A stretch of 52,217 nt of DNA from a virus. This document shows, one piece after another, positions 3,876-51,621 of the stretch (its first letter is position 1; each line of letters starts with the position of its first letter). The notes under the pieces are model-generated. The model saw nothing but the letters and a program-made list of their open reading frames with translations, had not been told where the DNA came from and did no database searches. The stretch covers positions 1-52,217 of the IMG/VR virus record IMGVR_UViG_3300023179_000149; one strand, written 5' to 3'. Both the position numbers and the translations under genes were made by a program.

Positions 3876-6179
3876 TTAATATGGGTTTAGTTTAGTACCT
3901 AACCCAAGTCCTTTCATGACTTGAGAAACCGATTCAGCTGGTGGTCCCGGGATTGATACCGGGACTTGACTGGTGTCTGACCTAATAATACCTCTGGAAC
4001 GAGAACGTCCGGCAAGTTTCCCAAAGTTTTCAAGTCCTATTTGAGCTGTAGAGGTGTTCCTTGCAACACCCATCAAAGTATTTAATGCTCCTTGAGACAG
4101 GTATGGGTCACTGGCGGCAGTTAATTTAATACCGGATTGCTGTAAAACATCATTGAATTTTGCGGCCATCATTGGATATGCGGATTCACTTATACCTTTT
4201 GTATTTATAAACTTAGTAGCAGCATCAATAAATGCCGGATTTGTGTTTTCTATAACTTGACCAGAGTTTGTAATAACATCAGGATTGGGTAACTCAATAC
4301 CATGATGTACTGCATGTTGTTGTACAACGTCTGCAAAAACTTTATGTGCTTGTGCGCCAATGCGTTTTTTAAATTCGTTAGTGGTCATTGGTATTATCCC
4401 GTTTTCTGTTTTTAAATGTAATACTTGACTTGAGCTTTGTGGACTAAGTAAAGCATTAAACATTTGCACTTTTTGAGGACTTGTAGCAGATTTATATGTA
4501 GCTGCTGCTATTTCAGGATTTACGTCAGTTGTTTGTCCAGTAAAGCCTGCATACTCAATTCTTCCTTCAGCAAGAGCTTCTTTATCTAATGCGCTTACAT
4601 TACGCATAGTTCTACCACCAGCAGTTGAAATTACTGCATTAGGATCTGTTATTTCTTGGCTTACTCCAGGTACATAATCACCTTTGAGTGTTGCGCGGGA
4701 AGCGCTTTGACGGCCTTGTTTTGTTAAACCGGCTACGTTTTCTTCTGTAAACCGCTCAAGAAAATCTTTTGCAACAGCTCCTTTTATTTCACCTGTTCCT
4801 ACTTGCATAGTGCGTCCGGTTTGAATTTGACCAGGATCAAATGTTTGAGAACCGATTGCAAGATAATCTTTTGGTGTAAAAGCTTTCTGCATTGCAGATG
4901 ATAGCTCACCACCACGAAGAACGGCTTGTGCATTTTCTGGTGTAATACGTTCTCCGGTTTTAGCGTAAACTTCTGCTACAAGGTTTGCAGTTTCTATTTC
5001 TTCAGGAGAAGTTGTACGTACTGGACGTGGGCCACGTGCATACCATGGGTCAGAAACTTTTCCTTTTATTGTTTGCAGGGGAATATTAAAAGATTCTGTA
5101 GATTTACTAGCGGGTGTATATTCTCCGGTCCATGGGTCTGCGCTTTTTGTTAACCCAGATACAAATAGATCTACTTCATTTGTTAAAGATGGATTTAAAG
5201 ATGATGTCTGTTGTGATGTAGTTGCTGGCATTGTTTCCGGTAACTCAACACTTGATAAAGATCTGATTCGTTCTGATAAACTCTGTTGTTCAAGTCCCGG
5301 TAAATTTGGTAATGGAGGATCAGTAGTTTCTACGCCATACTTTATGTCAGAAAATGACATACCTGATTTTAATTTACGTGCAATATTTGCAAGACGTAAT
5401 GCTGCTTCTTTTCTTTGATTTAATGAAACAATGTCTTCTGTTTGACTCGGTGAAAATGTTTGGCTTGATGTAATTACTTCACTCTCTGTAACTGGTTTAA
5501 TATTTAAAAGTTCACGTTCTGTTGAACCAACAGGTGAATTTTTTGCAATTTGTATTTCTTGTGTAGCTACCGGAACATCAGCTTGGTTATAACGTTGTGC
5601 TGTTGTTGGAGGTGTTACATCACCAGAATTACGTATTACATCTGGATAAACGCCACGATCTACCCCTAATCCCCCTAAGAAATTAGAAACACGGTTATTA
5701 ATATTTTGAACGTTTTGTTTAACTGTTGTTGCAGCATTTTGAATTGTTTGCCTACCCTCTGGCGTAGCTGCTAGAGCAACTCCACCTGCAACAAGTCCGG
5801 CGCCAAGGGCTGCACGACCAATATTACGTACTAAATTGTATTGTTTAGATGTATCTTCCATGCGTTCTGCTTCTTGATTGGCAGTATGTTCTCCAGTAAG
5901 TGTTGAATCATAGGTGCCTACGATTTTAGAAACGTTATTATCTGGTGTAACGGGAGAACCAAATACACTATTTGCGTTTAAATATTGAGCAGAAACTGGT
6001 TGATTATATATAGCATTTGATCCAGGTTGTTCTAGAACCCTATTTATCCCTGATTTACCAAAATTACGCACAAAATTATGTACCTGGGGTGCTAAAGCCA
6101 TGCGTTCACTTACTGTTTCAGGGTAATTATTACCTGTAACCGATGCCCATAAGGCAAAATCTTGCGGTGATACGGGCAT
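3876..6179 (-). CDS. Large hypothetical virion protein, 767 aa
   Basis: 767 residues and the first gene of the leftward cluster. An Ala/Gly-rich hydrophobic stretch near residues 120-140 (AALGAGLVAGGVALAAT) is followed by a long, polar, Ser/Thr/Gln/Pro-rich body without enzymatic motifs. Size, position at the head of the cluster and one membrane-compatible segment suggest an internal virion or tail-associated protein; no homologue is recognised. ATG at 6179 is preceded by AT-rich DNA with possible minus-strand -10 boxes but no clear Shine-Dalgarno sequence. Confidence 0.65.
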   Translation of the reverse strand: MPVSPQDFALWASVTGNNYPETVSERMALAPQVHNFVRNFGKSGINRVLEQPGSNAIYNQPVSAQYLNANSVFGSPVTPDNNVSKIVGTYDSTLTGEHTANQEAERMEDTSKQYNLVRNIGRAALGAGLVAGGVALAATPEGRQTIQNAATTVKQNVQNINNRVSNFLGGLGVDRGVYPDVIRNSGDVTPPTTAQRYNQADVPVATQEIQIAKNSPVGSTERELLNIKPVTESEVITSSQTFSPSQTEDIVSLNQRKEAALRLANIARKLKSGMSFSDIKYGVETTDPPLPNLPGLEQQSLSERIRSLSSVELPETMPATTSQQTSSLNPSLTNEVDLFVSGLTKSADPWTGEYTPASKSTESFNIPLQTIKGKVSDPWYARGPRPVRTTSPEEIETANLVAEVYAKTGERITPENAQAVLRGGELSSAMQKAFTPKDYLAIGSQTFDPGQIQTGRTMQVGTGEIKGAVAKDFLERFTEENVAGLTKQGRQSASRATLKGDYVPGVSQEITDPNAVISTAGGRTMRNVSALDKEALAEGRIEYAGFTGQTTDVNPEIAAATYKSATSPQKVQMFNALLSPQSSSQVLHLKTENGIIPMTTNEFKKRIGAQAHKVFADVVQQHAVHHGIELPNPDVITNSGQVIENTNPAFIDAATKFINTKGISESAYPMMAAKFNDVLQQSGIKLTAASDPYLSQGALNTLMGVARNTSTAQIGLENFGKLAGRSRSRGIIRSDTSQVPVSIPGPPAESVSQVMKGLGLGTKLNPY

Positions 6180-6524: not shown

Positions 6525-6697
6525 GTCGTTTCCTTAACTTATACTCTATATACCCTCATTATCCCTTATAATCCCTTGCGCCGCAGTCGCTCTCACCTAA
6601 CACGCCAGATAAAAAGTGGCGCGTTAAAAAATTTTCGGCAAGAGCTGTGGAATACTTAATTTAGATATTTTGTAAATATTTTGTTTTGTTGTTGATT

Positions 6698-6752
6698 TAT
6701 TGCTGTTCTATTGCTGTTCTATTGCTGTTCTATTGCTGTTCTATTGCTGTTT
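6698..6752. repeat. Five tandem copies of an 11-bp repeat
   Basis: The unit TATTGCTGTTC is repeated at 6698, 6709, 6720, 6731 and 6742; only the last base of the fifth copy differs. The unit is exactly one helical turn, so bound proteins would line up on one face of the DNA. The repeat sits in the main control region, as expected for an iteron-like origin or an operator array, but slipped-strand expansion is an alternative. Confidence 0.85.
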
Positions 6753-6976
6753 TTAAATGCAGTCGTTTGTTGCATAAGACTTGTATTTATTCGGGAATTT
6801 ATTTTTGTATTTAATACTACTTGGTAATAAGTAATTATTTCTAAGGGTATACCTCAAGTACAGCCTTAGAAACAGTTTTCTTAACTGCATCTAATTCTAA
6901 CAAGAATTAATCCTGCTGCGTTTTAATATTTTATTTATTTAGTGAATTAATTTTGTATTTAAGTCTGCTTCGTTTC

Positions 6977-7005
6977 GGCCAACTACAGCCTGGCCTTGGA
7001 TGCTG
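6977..7005 (+). ncRNA. H-type pseudoknot RNA element A, copy 1
   Basis: GGCCA (6977-6981) pairs with TGGCC (6991-6995). The loop ACTACAGCC contains CAGC, which can pair with GCTG at 7002-7005, giving an H-type pseudoknot. Copy 2 at 8015-8043 keeps the loop and the downstream GCTG but has a different, still complementary, stem. It lies 22 bases before the ATG at 7028 and may be a 5'UTR regulator. No named riboswitch class is recognised. Confidence 0.55.
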
Positions 7006-7027
7006 TTTATTCCTTTGCACCACAATT

Positions 7028-7285
7028 ATGTCCACCACTGCTGTATATAACATGCTCCAGGATTTAAGACTCCTGGCACGCAGAGATTCCAGTGAGCGCC
7101 GACCTTTAATTGATCGTGAGCTGGAACAATTTCGACTTGAATTTTTGGATGCTTTTGAAACTTTTCTAGATTTAGGTACAAACAACATGCAACCTTTTAT
7201 TGTAGTTGCTAACAAAATCATCTCTAATAATAAAGAGCTAATTAAATGGCTTAAGCATGAGCTTGAGCTAGAAGCTGATTGGTAA
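7028..7285 (+). CDS. Hypothetical helical protein, 85 aa
   Basis: 85 residues starting at ATG 7028. An upstream TTG at 6953 in the same frame would add 25 residues made of pseudoknot-element sequence and is rejected. The protein is charged and predicted helical (RLLARRDSSERRPLIDRELEQ), with no membrane segment. CCTTTGCAC stands 8 bases before the start, as at several other genes here. Its TAA lies inside the first hairpin loop of RNA element B1. No family recognised. Confidence 0.6.
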   Translation: MSTTAVYNMLQDLRLLARRDSSERRPLIDRELEQFRLEFLDAFETFLDLGTNNMQPFIVVANKIISNNKELIKWLKHELELEADW

Positions 7286-7351
7286 TCAGACCAACTGGGA
7301 GGTTTAAGTCCTCCCTCAGCAATTGCCTCCAGCGGATATGGGCACCGCACT
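7279..7351 (+). ncRNA. Three-hairpin RNA element B, copy 1 (T-loop and possible pseudoknot)
   Basis: Hairpin P1 is TTGG/CCAA, whose loop starts with the TAA stop of the previous gene. P2 is GGGAGG/CCTCCC closed on the 7-base loop TTTAAGT, which fits the T-loop pattern UNNRANN. P3 is GCGG/CCGC with loop ATATGGGCA. TGCC at 7324-7327 can pair with GGCA at 7341-7344. P3 ends 3 bases before the ATG at 7352. Copy 2 at 7643-7717 has the same plan with compensated stems. Confidence 0.6.
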
Positions 7352-7642
7352 ATGGAAAGATTCATGATCAATTTAACTTCTGGTTGGGTACAACACCCAG
7401 GTGTTTCTGGTGGTTGGCATTTGGAATATGTTGATCCAGTTGCTGGATTTGACATCTCCATCGTAACCGGACCGAAAGGTTCTGGATTGATGGGTGTTAT
7501 AGCTCCAGGGCAACCAACGACCTATGAAGCCTGGTTACCAGGATTATCTAATCCTACGGGTTACTTAACCTTGGATGAAATACGTGGCATCATCATGTAT
7601 CTTCGCGAGAAACACCGTGATGACGCCATGTATGCAGACTGA
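7352..7642 (+). CDS. Hypothetical protein, 96 aa
   Basis: 96 residues with a balanced, globular composition; aromatic and glycine-rich N-terminal half (GWVQHPGVSGGWHLEYVD) and a helical C-terminus (LDEIRGIIMYLREKHRDD). No family recognised. ATG 7352 follows RNA element B1 by 3 bases with no room for a separate Shine-Dalgarno sequence, so the element must influence initiation if it folds. Confidence 0.65.
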   Translation: MERFMINLTSGWVQHPGVSGGWHLEYVDPVAGFDISIVTGPKGSGLMGVIAPGQPTTYEAWLPGLSNPTGYLTLDEIRGIIMYLREKHRDDAMYAD

Positions 7643-7717
7643 TCCGTAAAAGCGGGTGACCAGGTGCAAACCCTGGTCCAGTTGTTGCCTAATCCGCAGG
7701 AGATGGGCACCTGCACT
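7643..7717 (+). ncRNA. Three-hairpin RNA element B, copy 2
   Basis: P1 is TCCG/CGGG (one wobble) with loop TAAAAG. P2 is GACCAGG/CCTGGTC closed on TGCAAAC, again UNNRANN. P3 is GCAGG/CCTGC with loop AGATGGGCA. TGCC at 7686-7689 is complementary to GGCA at 7706-7709. The order, loop sequences and linker CAG-N-TTGCCT match copy 1 while all three stems differ and stay paired. That covariation is the main evidence for a real RNA structure. Confidence 0.6.
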
Positions 7718-7795
7718 TCATTTACTCAATGAAAGACTCACTAATTAATCCTGTCCTTGCTATCGAAGATAACCACCGCACAATTTCAAAATAAT

Positions 7796-7993: not shown

Positions 7994-8014
7994 CGATTAA
8001 AAGGTATCTGTTTA

Positions 8015-8043
8015 TCCCAACTGCAGCCTGGGACAGGATGCTG
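8015..8043 (+). ncRNA. H-type pseudoknot RNA element A, copy 2
   Basis: TCCCA (8015-8019) pairs with TGGGA (8029-8033) around loop ACTGCAGCC. CAGC in the loop (8024-8027) can pair with GCTG at 8040-8043. Compared with copy 1 at 6977-7005 the stem changes on both sides while loop and GCTG are kept. It is followed by CCTTTGCAC and the ATG of the SSB-like gene at 8067. Confidence 0.55.
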
Positions 8044-8066
8044 CACTATCCCTTTGCACAACAACC

Positions 8067-8477
8067 ATGTCTTCTGCTAACAACGGTAATTTAATCGGTA
8101 CAATCGTATCCGAAATTAACTACCGTCAACCCAATGATCAACTAAACGTAACACAATTCCGTGTTGCACCAGTTGATGCACGTGATGGCGATTCTGCTAT
8201 TCCTCTCACTGCTTACAACGGTGTAGGAAAAAATATCGCCGATAAATACAACCAAGGTGACACAGTTGGTATAACTTACCGACTGCGTTATACAACTTGG
8301 CAAGATAAAGAAGGTAAGTACTTGAGCCGTATGGAAATTGTGGTAACTTCTATTACTACAATCCGTCTTGGTAAAATCAGTACTGCTAAACGAGTTGAAG
8401 AAACAGCTGGTACCAACAAACCAACTGATAATCAACTCAGCCTCCAGGAAGATGATCTCTTGCTGGCTTCTATTTGA
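8067..8477 (+). CDS. Single-stranded DNA-binding-like (OB-fold) protein
   Basis: 136 residues. The pattern NGNLIGTIVSEI, a strand FRVAPVDARDG, then VGITYRLRYTTWQDKEGKYLSRMEIVVTSI is what a single OB fold of the SSB type looks like. The C-terminus is acidic and hydrophobic (QEDDLLLASI), like the protein-interaction tail of bacterial SSB, though not the canonical DDDIPF. It would coat single-stranded DNA during phage replication. A second, larger SSB-like protein is at 24131. Preceded by RNA element A2 and followed by a clear terminator. Confidence 0.6.
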   Translation: MSSANNGNLIGTIVSEINYRQPNDQLNVTQFRVAPVDARDGDSAIPLTAYNGVGKNIADKYNQGDTVGITYRLRYTTWQDKEGKYLSRMEIVVTSITTIRLGKISTAKRVEETAGTNKPTDNQLSLQEDDLLLASI

Positions 8478-8890: not shown

Positions 8891-8992
8891 TAAATATCAA
8901 ATCAAATAACTTACTTCGTTTAAACATTTTTTATTTTATGAATCAAGTTTGTATTTAAACTTGCTTCGTTCCACTCCTTTGCATCAAAAATC

Positions 8993-29547: not shown

Positions 29548-29928
29548 TTAAACATTTATTTGTTTTGTAGCGCGATTAAAAACTTTAATTACGCTCGATT
29601 CTGCTTCAAATTCTTCTTTTAATAAAGTACATGCAGCATCTGGGTCCGTATGTTTGCCGCAAGTAAATACATCAACCGCTACATAACTCAATTCAGGCCA
29701 CGTGTGAAGTGCTATGTGTGACTCAGATAAAAGTGCTAATGCTGTAACACCTTGTGGTTGAAATTTATGCGCAATCAACTGAAGCAAAGTTGCTCCCGAA
29801 CGAATAACAGCTTTTTCAATAGCATTTTTTACAAAAATTTCATCATCTAGATGTATTGGATTGCACCTATATGCATCAAGTATGCAGTGTCGTCCTAAGG
29901 TTTCCAGCTCATACACTTTTTTGCACAC
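29548..29928 (-). CDS. speD: S-adenosylmethionine decarboxylase (SpeD)
   Basis: 126 residues, GTG start at 29928. The motif LSESHIALHTWPELSYVAVD holds the self-cleavage site Glu69-Ser70, where Ser70 becomes the pyruvoyl group, plus H75 and the downstream C of FTCGKH that serve as catalytic residues in the bacterial small-form enzyme. Decarboxylated SAM is the aminopropyl donor for spermidine. speD is a known cyanophage auxiliary gene; polyamines may aid DNA packing or photosystem II. It is leftward amid rightward genes. Confidence 0.9.
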   Translation of the reverse strand: MCKKVYELETLGRHCILDAYRCNPIHLDDEIFVKNAIEKAVIRSGATLLQLIAHKFQPQGVTALALLSESHIALHTWPELSYVAVDVFTCGKHTDPDAACTLLKEEFEAESSVIKVFNRATKQINV

Positions 29929-48629: not shown

Positions 48630-49481
48630 ATGACAACATTACTTGAAGCCTGGGAGCAATTCAAAGCCGAAAGAGCTATTGCCCTGTGTCCAACCAGCCT
48701 GGTTGCAGACTACAAGCAAGTGGGCAAATGGTTAAATAAATGCCCAATCACAGATTTAAATGAGGGAAGAAAAATATTAACATGGATATTAAGTCAAAAA
48801 CCTGTTAAATCTAGTCGGCGTGTGACAATGTACATAAAATCGTTATATCGTTGGGCATCTAGTGAGGATATAAAATTAATTGATAAAAATCCAATTGTTA
48901 GTTTTAAAATGCCAAAACCACCGCAAGAAGATGTTGATATTATTGTAATTCCACGGCAAGAAACAGAGTTAGTTTTGAAAGCACTTGGATCAAGACAATC
49001 ACGTAACGGAGCCAACTGGGCATTTTATTCTGAGTTTATGTTGCAAACTGCAATGCGCACCGGAGAGGTACGCGCACTTAAATGGGAAGATATAAAAGAA
49101 AATAAAATCCTTGTACATAGCAACTATACTCTTACTCACGGGTACAAGGATTCGACAAAAACAAATAGAAAACGATGGGTTCCTTTGAATAACAGGTGCC
49201 AAGAAATTATGTCTGCTGTATCAAAAACCAATGAATATATTTTCCCCTGGAATAGGTATGCATTTCAAAGTTATTTTTATGATCGAATGAGAGAATTACA
49301 TGAAAGTAAACTTATCCAAAACAGGTATAGGCCATATGACTTACGGCATACTGCAATTAGCCGGTGGATCGAGGCCCAGATTCCAGTAGCTCAAGTTGCA
49401 AACTGGGCAGGTAATAGTTCCGAGGTTATTTGGAAGCATTATGTAAACGTTACTCAGGAATACGAAATGCCGATTTTATAA
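48630..49481 (+). CDS. int: Tyrosine recombinase / integrase
   Basis: 283 residues. N-terminal SAM-like core-binding domain (1-95) and catalytic domain: Arg143 in AMRTGEVRALKWEDI, Lys177 in STKTNRKRWVPL, then YDLRHT with Arg239 (the box II His is Tyr236), the second His position is Asn262 in WAGNSS, and nucleophile Tyr271 in WKHYVN. The Arg-Lys-Arg-Tyr core is intact. It would integrate the phage genome; no att site or repressor is evident nearby. Convergent with the gene at 49489. Confidence 0.9.
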   Translation: MTTLLEAWEQFKAERAIALCPTSLVADYKQVGKWLNKCPITDLNEGRKILTWILSQKPVKSSRRVTMYIKSLYRWASSEDIKLIDKNPIVSFKMPKPPQEDVDIIVIPRQETELVLKALGSRQSRNGANWAFYSEFMLQTAMRTGEVRALKWEDIKENKILVHSNYTLTHGYKDSTKTNRKRWVPLNNRCQEIMSAVSKTNEYIFPWNRYAFQSYFYDRMRELHESKLIQNRYRPYDLRHTAISRWIEAQIPVAQVANWAGNSSEVIWKHYVNVTQEYEMPIL

Positions 49482-50386: not shown

Positions 50387-50470
50387 GAGTAAGTCAGGAA
50401 ATGAAGATAAAACTTTACAATTCCTTACACTTCTGAAACCGAGATCACCAGAAGTAAATCATCTCTAATA

Positions 50471-50493
50471 CCCGCATCCGAGGGTGATGTGGG
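50471..50493 (+). ncRNA. Hairpin in psbA 5'UTR (PhotoRC-like candidate)
   Basis: CCCGCATC (50471-50478) pairs with GATGTGGG (50486-50493), eight base pairs with one wobble, over loop CGAGGGT, about 50 bases before the start codon. PhotoRC-I and PhotoRC-II motifs are known structured elements upstream of psbA in marine cyanobacteria and their phages; whether this is one of them cannot be decided by eye. Confidence 0.5.
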
Positions 50494-50541
50494 AATAACA
50501 CCAACCGTTCGTCCCCCGAGCTCATAACTACCCTTTTAAAA

Positions 50542-51621
50542 GTGACCGCTTCAATTGCCTTACAAAAGCAAACAAACCCATGGCAACAATTTTGCCGTTG
50601 GGTAACCTCAACTGAAAATCGGTTGTACGTGGGTTGGTTTGGAGTCCTAATGATTCCAACACTTCTTGCTGCCGCCACCTGCTTTACCATAGCTTTTATT
50701 GGTGCCCCTCCTGTCGATATAGATGGGATTCGTGAGCCTGTATCTGGCTCTTTACTTTATGGAAACAACATTATTTCAGGAGCCGTTGTCCCCTCCTCAA
50801 ATGCAATCGGATTACATTTCTATCCAATTTGGGAAGCTGCTTCCCTTGATGAATGGCTCTACAACGGTGGGCCATTCCAGCTCGTCGTATTCCACTTCCT
50901 CATTGGCATCTTTGCTTACCTGGGACGCGAATGGGAACTTAGCTATCGATTAGGAATGCGCCCCTGGATCTGCATTGCCTACAGCGCCCCTGTGGCTGCT
51001 GCATCTGCAGTGTTCCTTGTGTATCCCTTTGGTCAGGGTTCCTTCTCTGATGCAATGCCCCTGGGTATTTCAGGCACCTTCAACTACATGTTGGTGTTCC
51101 AAGCTGAGCACAACATTCTTATGCACCCCTTCCACATGCTTGGAGTAGTTGGTGTATTCGGTGGATCACTTTTTAGTGCAATGCATGGTTCGCTTGTAAC
51201 GTCTTCATTGGTTCGGGAAACCACAGAAAACGAATCGCACAATTATGGTTACAAGTTTGGCCAAGAAGAAGAGACCTACAACATTGTGGCCGCCCACGGT
51301 TATTTTGGACGCCTTATTTTTCAATATGCATCTTTCAATAACTCACGTTCGCTTCATTTCTTCTTAGCTGCTTGGCCAGTAGTTGGCATTTGGTTCACTG
51401 CTTTAGGTGTCTCTACAATGGCATTTAATCTTAACGGATTTAATTTCAACCAGTCAATTGTTGACAGTCAGAATCGTGTCGTCCAAACCTGGGCAGACAT
51501 TTTGAACCGTGCTGGACTTGGCTTAGAAGTTATGCATGAAAGAAATGCTCACAACTTTCCATTAGATCTTGCTGCTTCTGAGTTAACCTCTGTTGCGCTA
51601 ATTGCACCTTCTATTGGTTAA
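50542..51621 (+). CDS. psbA: Photosystem II D1 protein
   Basis: 359 residues, GTG start; this start makes residue numbers match the standard D1. All functional residues are present: TyrZ Y161, H190, D170, E189, H198, H215, H252, S264, H272, H332, E333, H337, D342, A344. Position 130 is Glu, as in the high-light D1 form. Five transmembrane helices. The gene is visibly less AT-rich than its neighbours, consistent with host origin and high expression. It replaces damaged host D1 during infection. Own promoter and terminator. Confidence 0.98.

Follow-up and report, generated by a model that had tools for sequence, protein, structure and literature searches.

The locus and the anatomy of its two elements

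The DNA analyzed here is a 52.2-kb IMG/VR virus record, called the window throughout at its full length. Because it contains psbA and a PhotoRC-II leader, the window was assigned to a cyanophage. An ORF at 29548–29928 resembles speD (S-adenosylmethionine decarboxylase), a likeness judged by eye only. Two copies of a structured element flank a gene for a 96-aa protein, and the features are as follows, in window coordinates:

7028–7285, + strand: upstream ORF of 85 aa (translation)
7283–7285, + strand: TAA stop of the 85-aa ORF, within P1 of copy 1 (translation)
7274–7348, + strand: copy 1, whole element
7274–7320, + strand: copy 1, tRNA-like domain (sequence, MFE fold, covariance models)
7274–7278 with 7316–7320, + strand: copy 1, acceptor stem, GCTGA/TCAGC
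7279–7283 with 7290–7294, + strand: copy 1, D-like arm (P1), TTGGT/ACCAA, loop AATCAG
7297–7302 with 7310–7315, + strand: copy 1, T-arm (P2), GGGAGG/CCTCCC, T-loop TTTAAGT at 7303–7309
7321–7348, + strand: copy 1, linker AAT and pseudoknot (sequence; family covariation)
7324–7328 with 7340–7344: copy 1, pseudoknot pairing, TGCCT with GGGCA; stem GCGG 7332–7335 / CCGC 7345–7348
7352–7642, + strand: gene for the 96-aa protein, between copies 1 and 2 (homologues keep both copies)
7637–7714, + strand: copy 2, whole element
7637–7683, + strand: copy 2, tRNA-like domain (sequence, MFE fold, covariance models)
7637–7641 with 7679–7683, + strand: copy 2, acceptor stem, GACTG/CAGTT
7642–7646 with 7653–7657, + strand: copy 2, D-like arm, ATCCG/CGGGT, loop TAAAAG
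7658–7664 with 7672–7678, + strand: copy 2, T-arm, GACCAGG/CCTGGTC, T-loop TGCAAAC at 7665–7671
7684–7714, + strand: copy 2, linker GT and pseudoknot (sequence; family covariation)
7686–7690 with 7705–7709: copy 2, pseudoknot pairing, TGCCT with GGGCA; stem GCAGG 7696–7700 / CCTGC 7710–7714
7731–7793, + strand: short ORF after copy 2, about 20 codons, MKDSLINPVLAI...
48630–49481: tyrosine integrase (Pfam PF00589, PHROG integrase)
50415–51621: PhotoRC-II RNA immediately 5′ of the psbA gene

An earlier note on this DNA had described each copy as three hairpins in series. Both copies were found in the sequence where it had placed them, complete with linker, P3 loop and covarying stems. The site of each copy was thus right, but the element begins a few bases earlier than stated, since P1 and P2 are enclosed by an outer stem; they are not independent hairpins but the arms of one closed tRNA-like domain. 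The third hairpin fared better, since P3 and the linker do form a separate pseudoknot. The note also had each copy start at a stop codon; the stops are present, but not at that exact place, the TAA at 7283–7285 falling in P1 of copy 1, and the TGA of the 96-aa gene (7640–7642) in the acceptor strand of copy 2.

The acceptor and T stems together amount to 11 bp in copy 1 and 12 bp in copy 2. With covariance model R1, which was built without the pseudoknot, the copies scored E = 1.2e-12 and 7.8e-15, respectively; with model R2, covering the tRNA-like domain alone, they scored 1.6e-4 and 1.3e-14. The pseudoknot of copy 1 is invisible to nested folding. Since single-sequence folding of the two copies was only modestly better than that of shuffled sequences (z of −1.3 and −2.1), folding energy was not taken as proof of structure.

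The start of the 96-aa gene typical of its family, by the start position rule, is the ATG at 7364; the ATG at 7352 is likewise in frame. PHROG and Pfam searches gave no match for this gene or for the other window genes flanking the copies, the sole exception being an SSB gene at 8067–8477. A related phage has a longer ORF (MNDSLVNPVLAV...), of which the short ORF after copy 2 is apparently a truncated relative.

Other repeats were seen in the window. At 6978–7010 and 8014–8049 lies another repeated leader, which consists of an H-type pseudoknot (stems GGCC..TGGCC with ACAGC/GCTGT, and CCCA..TGGG with TGCAGC/GCTGCA) and, after it, CCTTTGCAC-ACAA and a start codon. It is kept with stem changes at loci L082, L157, L177 and L185, with the same two genes downstream (85-aa ORF and SSB), and an Rfam search gave no credible match to it. 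Similar 44-nt A+T-rich stretches at 6931–6974 and 8927–8970, ending in TTTGTATTTAA..CTTGCTTCGTT, lie ahead of genes and are promoter-like, and 11-bp head-to-tail repeats (TGTTCTATTGC) are present at 6671–6758.

A family of tRNA-like elements with exchangeable 3′ modules

Four homologues of the 96-aa gene were found in IMG/VR, each with elements on both sides. Across these loci the outer stem, the T-arm and the pairing between linker and P3 loop covary; one T-arm reads GGTTCGATTCC, a textbook tRNA T-arm, and the second element of one homologue (L004) has a simple hairpin instead of the pseudoknot. Exact-pattern scans of IMG/VR returned 114 and 60 stretches, in which genuine copies could be recognized by a 6- or 9-nt gap together with the structure, most other gap lengths being chance matches in coding sequence. 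In 24 seed copies, 96.5% of cells were paired, as against 80.0% in shuffles and 35–47% with slid partners, and double-sided changes were seen in 101 cells, as against 30 in shuffles. The second pseudoknot pair varies in this set partly because two patterns were searched.

A covariance-model search, named beforehand in the earlier note as the test that could overturn its proposal, yielded hundreds more copies with compensatory changes. Searching 96 loci with model R1 gave 265 matches at E < 0.01, from which 231 distinct copies were parsed. Rfam searches at the gathering threshold and at looser ones (around the element, to E 5) gave nothing relevant or credible, in agreement with the earlier view that the element belongs to no named class. 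Two exact-pattern scans of prokaryote genomes, covering 84,980 species, gave 0 and 2 matches and no cyanobacterial copy. The two, in a gut Oscillospiraceae and in Hydrogenophaga, had weak R1 scores (E 0.005–0.009) for which the shared core alone accounts, and were read as chance. We found no description of such a family in the literature within reach of our searches. On the strength of sequence comparison we regard the structure and the family as secure: the element belongs to a large RNA family absent from Rfam.

The common layout is an acceptor stem enclosing the D-like arm (P1) and the T-arm (P2), then A-UU, then a 3′ module. When the helix formed by T-stem and acceptor was free to extend to 16 bp, it measured 12 bp in 147 of the 231 copies, 11 bp in 36, 13 bp in 38, 10 bp in 6 and 14–15 bp in 4; pairing is 0.83 at depth 12 but only 0.23 at depth 13. 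The D-like arm breaks into this helix at varying points (5+7, 6+6, 7+5, 8+4), and the sum stays at about 12. In tRNA, the acceptor and T stems have 7 + 5 bp (PMC4919913). The insert between acceptor and T-arm is 8–30 nt long, and the family alignment has no anticodon arm.

The T-loop that had been proposed for P2 is conserved, reading T/A-N-C-R-A in nearly all parsed copies. A58 is present in all of them, as the parser required (it demanded the first, fourth and fifth loop positions), and C56, which was left free, in about 97%. The P1 loop and T-loop covary at the positions expected for the elbow contact 19–56: C56 was found with G in 143 copies and U56 with A in 4, the crossed combinations in 4 and 1 (Fisher p = 1.6e-5, uncorrected for relatedness), and in a separate alignment of 25 tRNA-like domains the pair was G-C in 24. 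T-loop residue 55 tracks the neighboring P1 nucleotide. Some copies have a stemless 8-nt D-loop, ANGGTGNA, together with UUCGA T-loops.

At the 3′ end of the helix, the discriminator-like position 73 is A in 153 of 201 copies. A U follows within 2 nt in 201/201, a near-invariance that is partly circular, the UU and RCC columns having been in the search pattern and seeds; CCA was found in 0/201. In the divergent copies of S-SBP1, Syn5 and P-SSP7 a U is still nearby and its place is not constant. About two thirds of the copies have A-U or G-U as the first helix pair.

The 3′ module is a pseudoknot in 139 of the 231 copies, a simple hairpin in 80 (for example TGCCAC-N6-GTGGCA or GCCACAC-ACTGA-GTGTGGC) and something else in 12; pseudoknot and hairpin replace each other before the same gene family. 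The pseudoknot is of the H type, with TRCCY of the linker pairing with RGGYA of the P3 loop, and carries a conserved GGAGAURGGYACC core. The pairing suggested earlier between linker and P3 loop is borne out by covariation in the family: TGCCC/GGGCA in 41 copies, TACCC/GGGTA in 39, TGCCT/AGGCA in 24, TGCCT/GGGCA in 14, another pair in 1 and mismatches in 3. The TGCCT/AGGCA form turned up though the search pattern did not require AGGCA. We considered whether the pseudoknot is an independent module, but nearly all of the 42 pseudoknots without a parsed tRNA-like domain had one by inspection, having been missed by the parser; a few true examples without it exist (e.g., L079 592, L007 475 and L039 2495). 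The AUG in the P3 loop was rejected as a start codon: only 32 of 67 cases have it in frame, and AGAUAGG variants lack it.

Two further leader structures were observed. A common GGGGGCTGCGCATCC-AACAACGCAGACAC hairpin leader heads arrays in L007 (~473–505), where it joins the pseudoknot directly, and in L003 (~5905–5935), where it joins the tRNA-like domain. In many array copies, a mini-hairpin after the P3 pseudoknot holds the Shine–Dalgarno sequence and the start codon (L035 1075–1153, L021 8629–8708), with a stem that changes in sequence (ACAGGAGNNTCCTGTG, CACGGAG..CCGTG, ATGGAG..CCATG).

Gene borders, arrays and isolate phages

As at the original locus, the element lies before the next gene elsewhere in the family, between consecutive stop and start codons. 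Of 221 copies, 161 have the first base of the preceding ORF's in-frame stop at helix position +2 or +3; where this stop is UAA, the paired strand changes along with it (e.g., AAGTAA...TACTT). Measured from the end of the helix, the next start codon is mostly at +43 to +45 in the pseudoknot form and +34 to +38 in the hairpin form, and many downstream genes have no evident Shine–Dalgarno sequence. Arrays hold up to nine copies in about 2.3 kb, with a median spacing of 246 nt, and most of the genomes searched whole have a single array. The intervening small proteins, with frames fixed by the stop codon of the next element, number 107 and cluster into 29 families, several of which have differing neighbors in different phages.

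Copies are also present in isolate phages. Synechococcus phage S-EIV1 has two, and S-SBP1 has copies before its first genes, gp01, gp02 and gp03, and before the major capsid gene. Six T7-like cyanophages were examined with R2 (S-SBP1, S-CBP42, P-SSP7, Syn5, S-CBP3 and P60), and each gave one copy upstream of its major capsid gene. The matches in S-CBP3, Syn5 and P60 are weak on their own (E 0.006–0.014) but occur at the same location; these pre-capsid copies are more than 100 nt from the start codon. Syn5 has a further copy before gp10, and P-SSP7 has weaker copies near its first genes, two of them directly before annotated start codons. Coliphage T7, used as a negative control, gave no match up to E 10, or up to E 5 with R2.

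In T7-like cyanophages, the stretch that separates the tRNA-like element from the capsid gene also has a recurrent CCGGTACGCCGA-ACC hairpin along with a GACGGTGGGATAGACCAC-like motif (L174 19349–19420, L199 21380–21450, L173 ~3310, L198 20700–20740). The motif is possibly a late promoter.

A putative processing signal and its alternatives

Comparison of the copies establishes a tRNA-length stack, covariation at the elbow, a discriminator followed by U, the lack of CCA and a structured leader near the start codon. Both tRNA maturases measure the distance from elbow to acceptor end; CCA is an antideterminant, and the elbow is clamped (PMC4919913). The contacts are carried by the T-arm and acceptor (PMC7479834), and a U within 2 nt of the discriminator stimulates subtilis RNase Z about 200-fold (PMC10100781). 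Cyanobacteria encode CCA mostly only in initiator tRNA genes (PMC5143459), and their RNase P favors CCA-less substrates (PMC4264200). Because this literature fits its features, the element looks like a host-matched substrate, and its 3′ determinants appear consistent with cleavage by RNase P, RNase Z or both. We consider it an even call that the element is an intercistronic tRNA mimic and an mRNA-processing signal, at which host RNase Z, perhaps together with RNase P, makes the cut. Of the roles offered in the earlier note, a processing signal is thus the favored one.

Host RNase Z would read the elbow and the acceptor end and cut after the discriminator, on the assumption that it acts on a substrate with a long 5′ extension. 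The upstream message would keep its stop codon and gain a tRNA-like 3′ end, and the downstream message would begin with UU and the pseudoknot or hairpin, which may protect it and keep its distance to the start codon constant. RNase P could be a second enzyme, though by cutting at the helix 5′ end it would take the stop codon off the upstream message. It is less likely to act alone, because most elements have that codon within the acceptor strand and because the first pair is, as noted, mostly A-U or G-U. Arrays would turn one long early transcript into single-gene messages. In a broader picture, whose chances we put somewhat short of even, cyanophages use a "tRNA punctuation" in which half-mimics recruit host tRNA maturases to cut polycistronic mRNA, leaving pseudoknot- or hairpin-headed messages, with the same device placed before the capsid gene of T7-like cyanophages.

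Against processing, the tRNA-like shape would be equally suited to binding the ribosome or EF-Tu, and a terminating ribosome would unfold the element, whose acceptor strand overlaps the stop codon. The element might instead bind the ribosome, either to raise initiation on the gene that follows or to link termination at the overlapped stop with reinitiation. Cis-placed tRNAs or the tRNA-like yjdF riboswitch upstream of a Shine–Dalgarno sequence raise translation 2- to 6.3-fold (PMC9142559), and the position exactly between stop and start, at fixed distances from both, and the many downstream genes without an evident Shine–Dalgarno sequence would suit such a role. However, there is no anticodon-like arm, the acceptor would melt under terminating ribosomes, and such a role would leave unexplained the exact 12-bp ruler, the U after the discriminator and the distance of over 100 nt between the capsid-gene copies and the start codon. 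We hold this explanation to be unlikely, though it is the main alternative, with the yjdF riboswitch as its precedent.

A role in mRNA stability without cleavage, in which the tRNA-like fold and the pseudoknot would block exonucleases or trap degradation intermediates at gene borders, seems to us improbable. In its favor, the fold is compact and stable, closes one gene at its 3′ end and stands on the 5′ side of the following one, and has two interchangeable 3′ modules. A plain hairpin would suffice, however, and constraints as detailed as those on the elbow and the 12-bp length point to a reader able to measure tRNA.

Regulation in cis by a ligand or phage protein, with P3 gating the start region of a riboswitch or operator, would agree with the leader position and with the conserved GGAGAURGGYACC core. 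We rate it as quite improbable: the riboswitch also raised in the earlier note is unlikely because many unrelated small genes carry the element and its 3′ module is interchangeable, simple hairpins taking the place of the core before the same gene families, and the P3-loop AUG, for the reasons given above, is no start codon. Least credible of all is a DNA recombination site (attC- or tRNA-att-like) that shuffles small genes as cassettes, the RNA likeness being incidental; tRNA genes are frequent targets of integrases, a tyrosine integrase gene is present in the window and the arrays are made of one-gene units with reordered neighbors, but the constraints are of the RNA type (G-U pairs, D/T-loop tertiary covariation, fixed stop-start orientation) and copies also occupy the fixed pre-capsid position in T7-like phages.

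Known RNAs were compared with the element. A tRNA (RF00005) was ruled out by the lack of an ARAGORN call in the window, of an Rfam tRNA match and of an anticodon arm. The tRNA-like domain of tmRNA shares the acceptor, T-arm and D-loop without an anticodon arm, but its pseudoknot is inside, whereas that of the phage element is 3′ of the acceptor; with no tag ORF (the insert is 8–30 nt), no CCA and no ARAGORN call in the window, tmRNA was excluded. The 3′ tRNA-like structures of plant viruses were set aside, the phage element being internal, repeated, without CCA and in a DNA phage, as was an intrinsic terminator, no U run following the T-arm, P3 or hairpin module in the copies listed. The yjdF riboswitch (RF01764) likewise has a tRNA-like D/T-loop elbow in a 5′ leader and acts on translation (PMC9142559), but the phage element did not match its family model, has no anticodon-like arm and is not tied to one gene family. 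Set against riboswitches in general, which join a conserved ligand core to related downstream genes, the phage element gave a mixed picture: its P3 core is conserved, the genes that follow are unrelated and the module is replaceable.

The closest likeness to a putative processing signal is with t-elements, tRNA-like structures at gene borders known from plant mitochondria, where they define intergenic cleavage sites (PMC8003010), and from the leader of Haloferax 5S rRNA, whose 5′ end is made by tRNase Z at such an element, a working precedent for the proposed cut (PMC4326828). In common with these, the phage element has a tRNA-sized stack of acceptor and T-arm with a T-loop, at same-strand gene borders. 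It differs in occurring in DNA phages, in many copies per genome between small genes, in having the stop codon in its acceptor strand and in being fused to a pseudoknot or hairpin leader, and its cleavage is inferred here from sequence. We class this new RNA family as a candidate member of the tRNA-like processing elements.

The tRNAs of animal mitochondria divide a long transcript into separate messages, and here too tRNA-shaped spacers lie within one transcript, although the phage spacers, without anticodon arm or CCA, are not functional tRNAs. Coliphage T7 divides its early transcript into separate messages with RNase III sites, structured cuts between early genes, and the S-SBP1 elements also precede gp01–gp03; the fold is different, however, the enzyme is presumably different, and T7 itself has no match.

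Hundreds of copies are present in cyanophages of at least two lineages, including the model isolates P-SSP7 and Syn5. Should the element act on the ribosome instead, it would be a bacterial-virus cousin of the known tRNA-like translation elements. If it is cleaved, this would be, to our knowledge, the first known phage-wide use of tRNA mimics as cut sites at gene borders; the expression of dense arrays of tiny genes would then be accounted for, and cyanobacterial genetics would gain ready-made processing tags.
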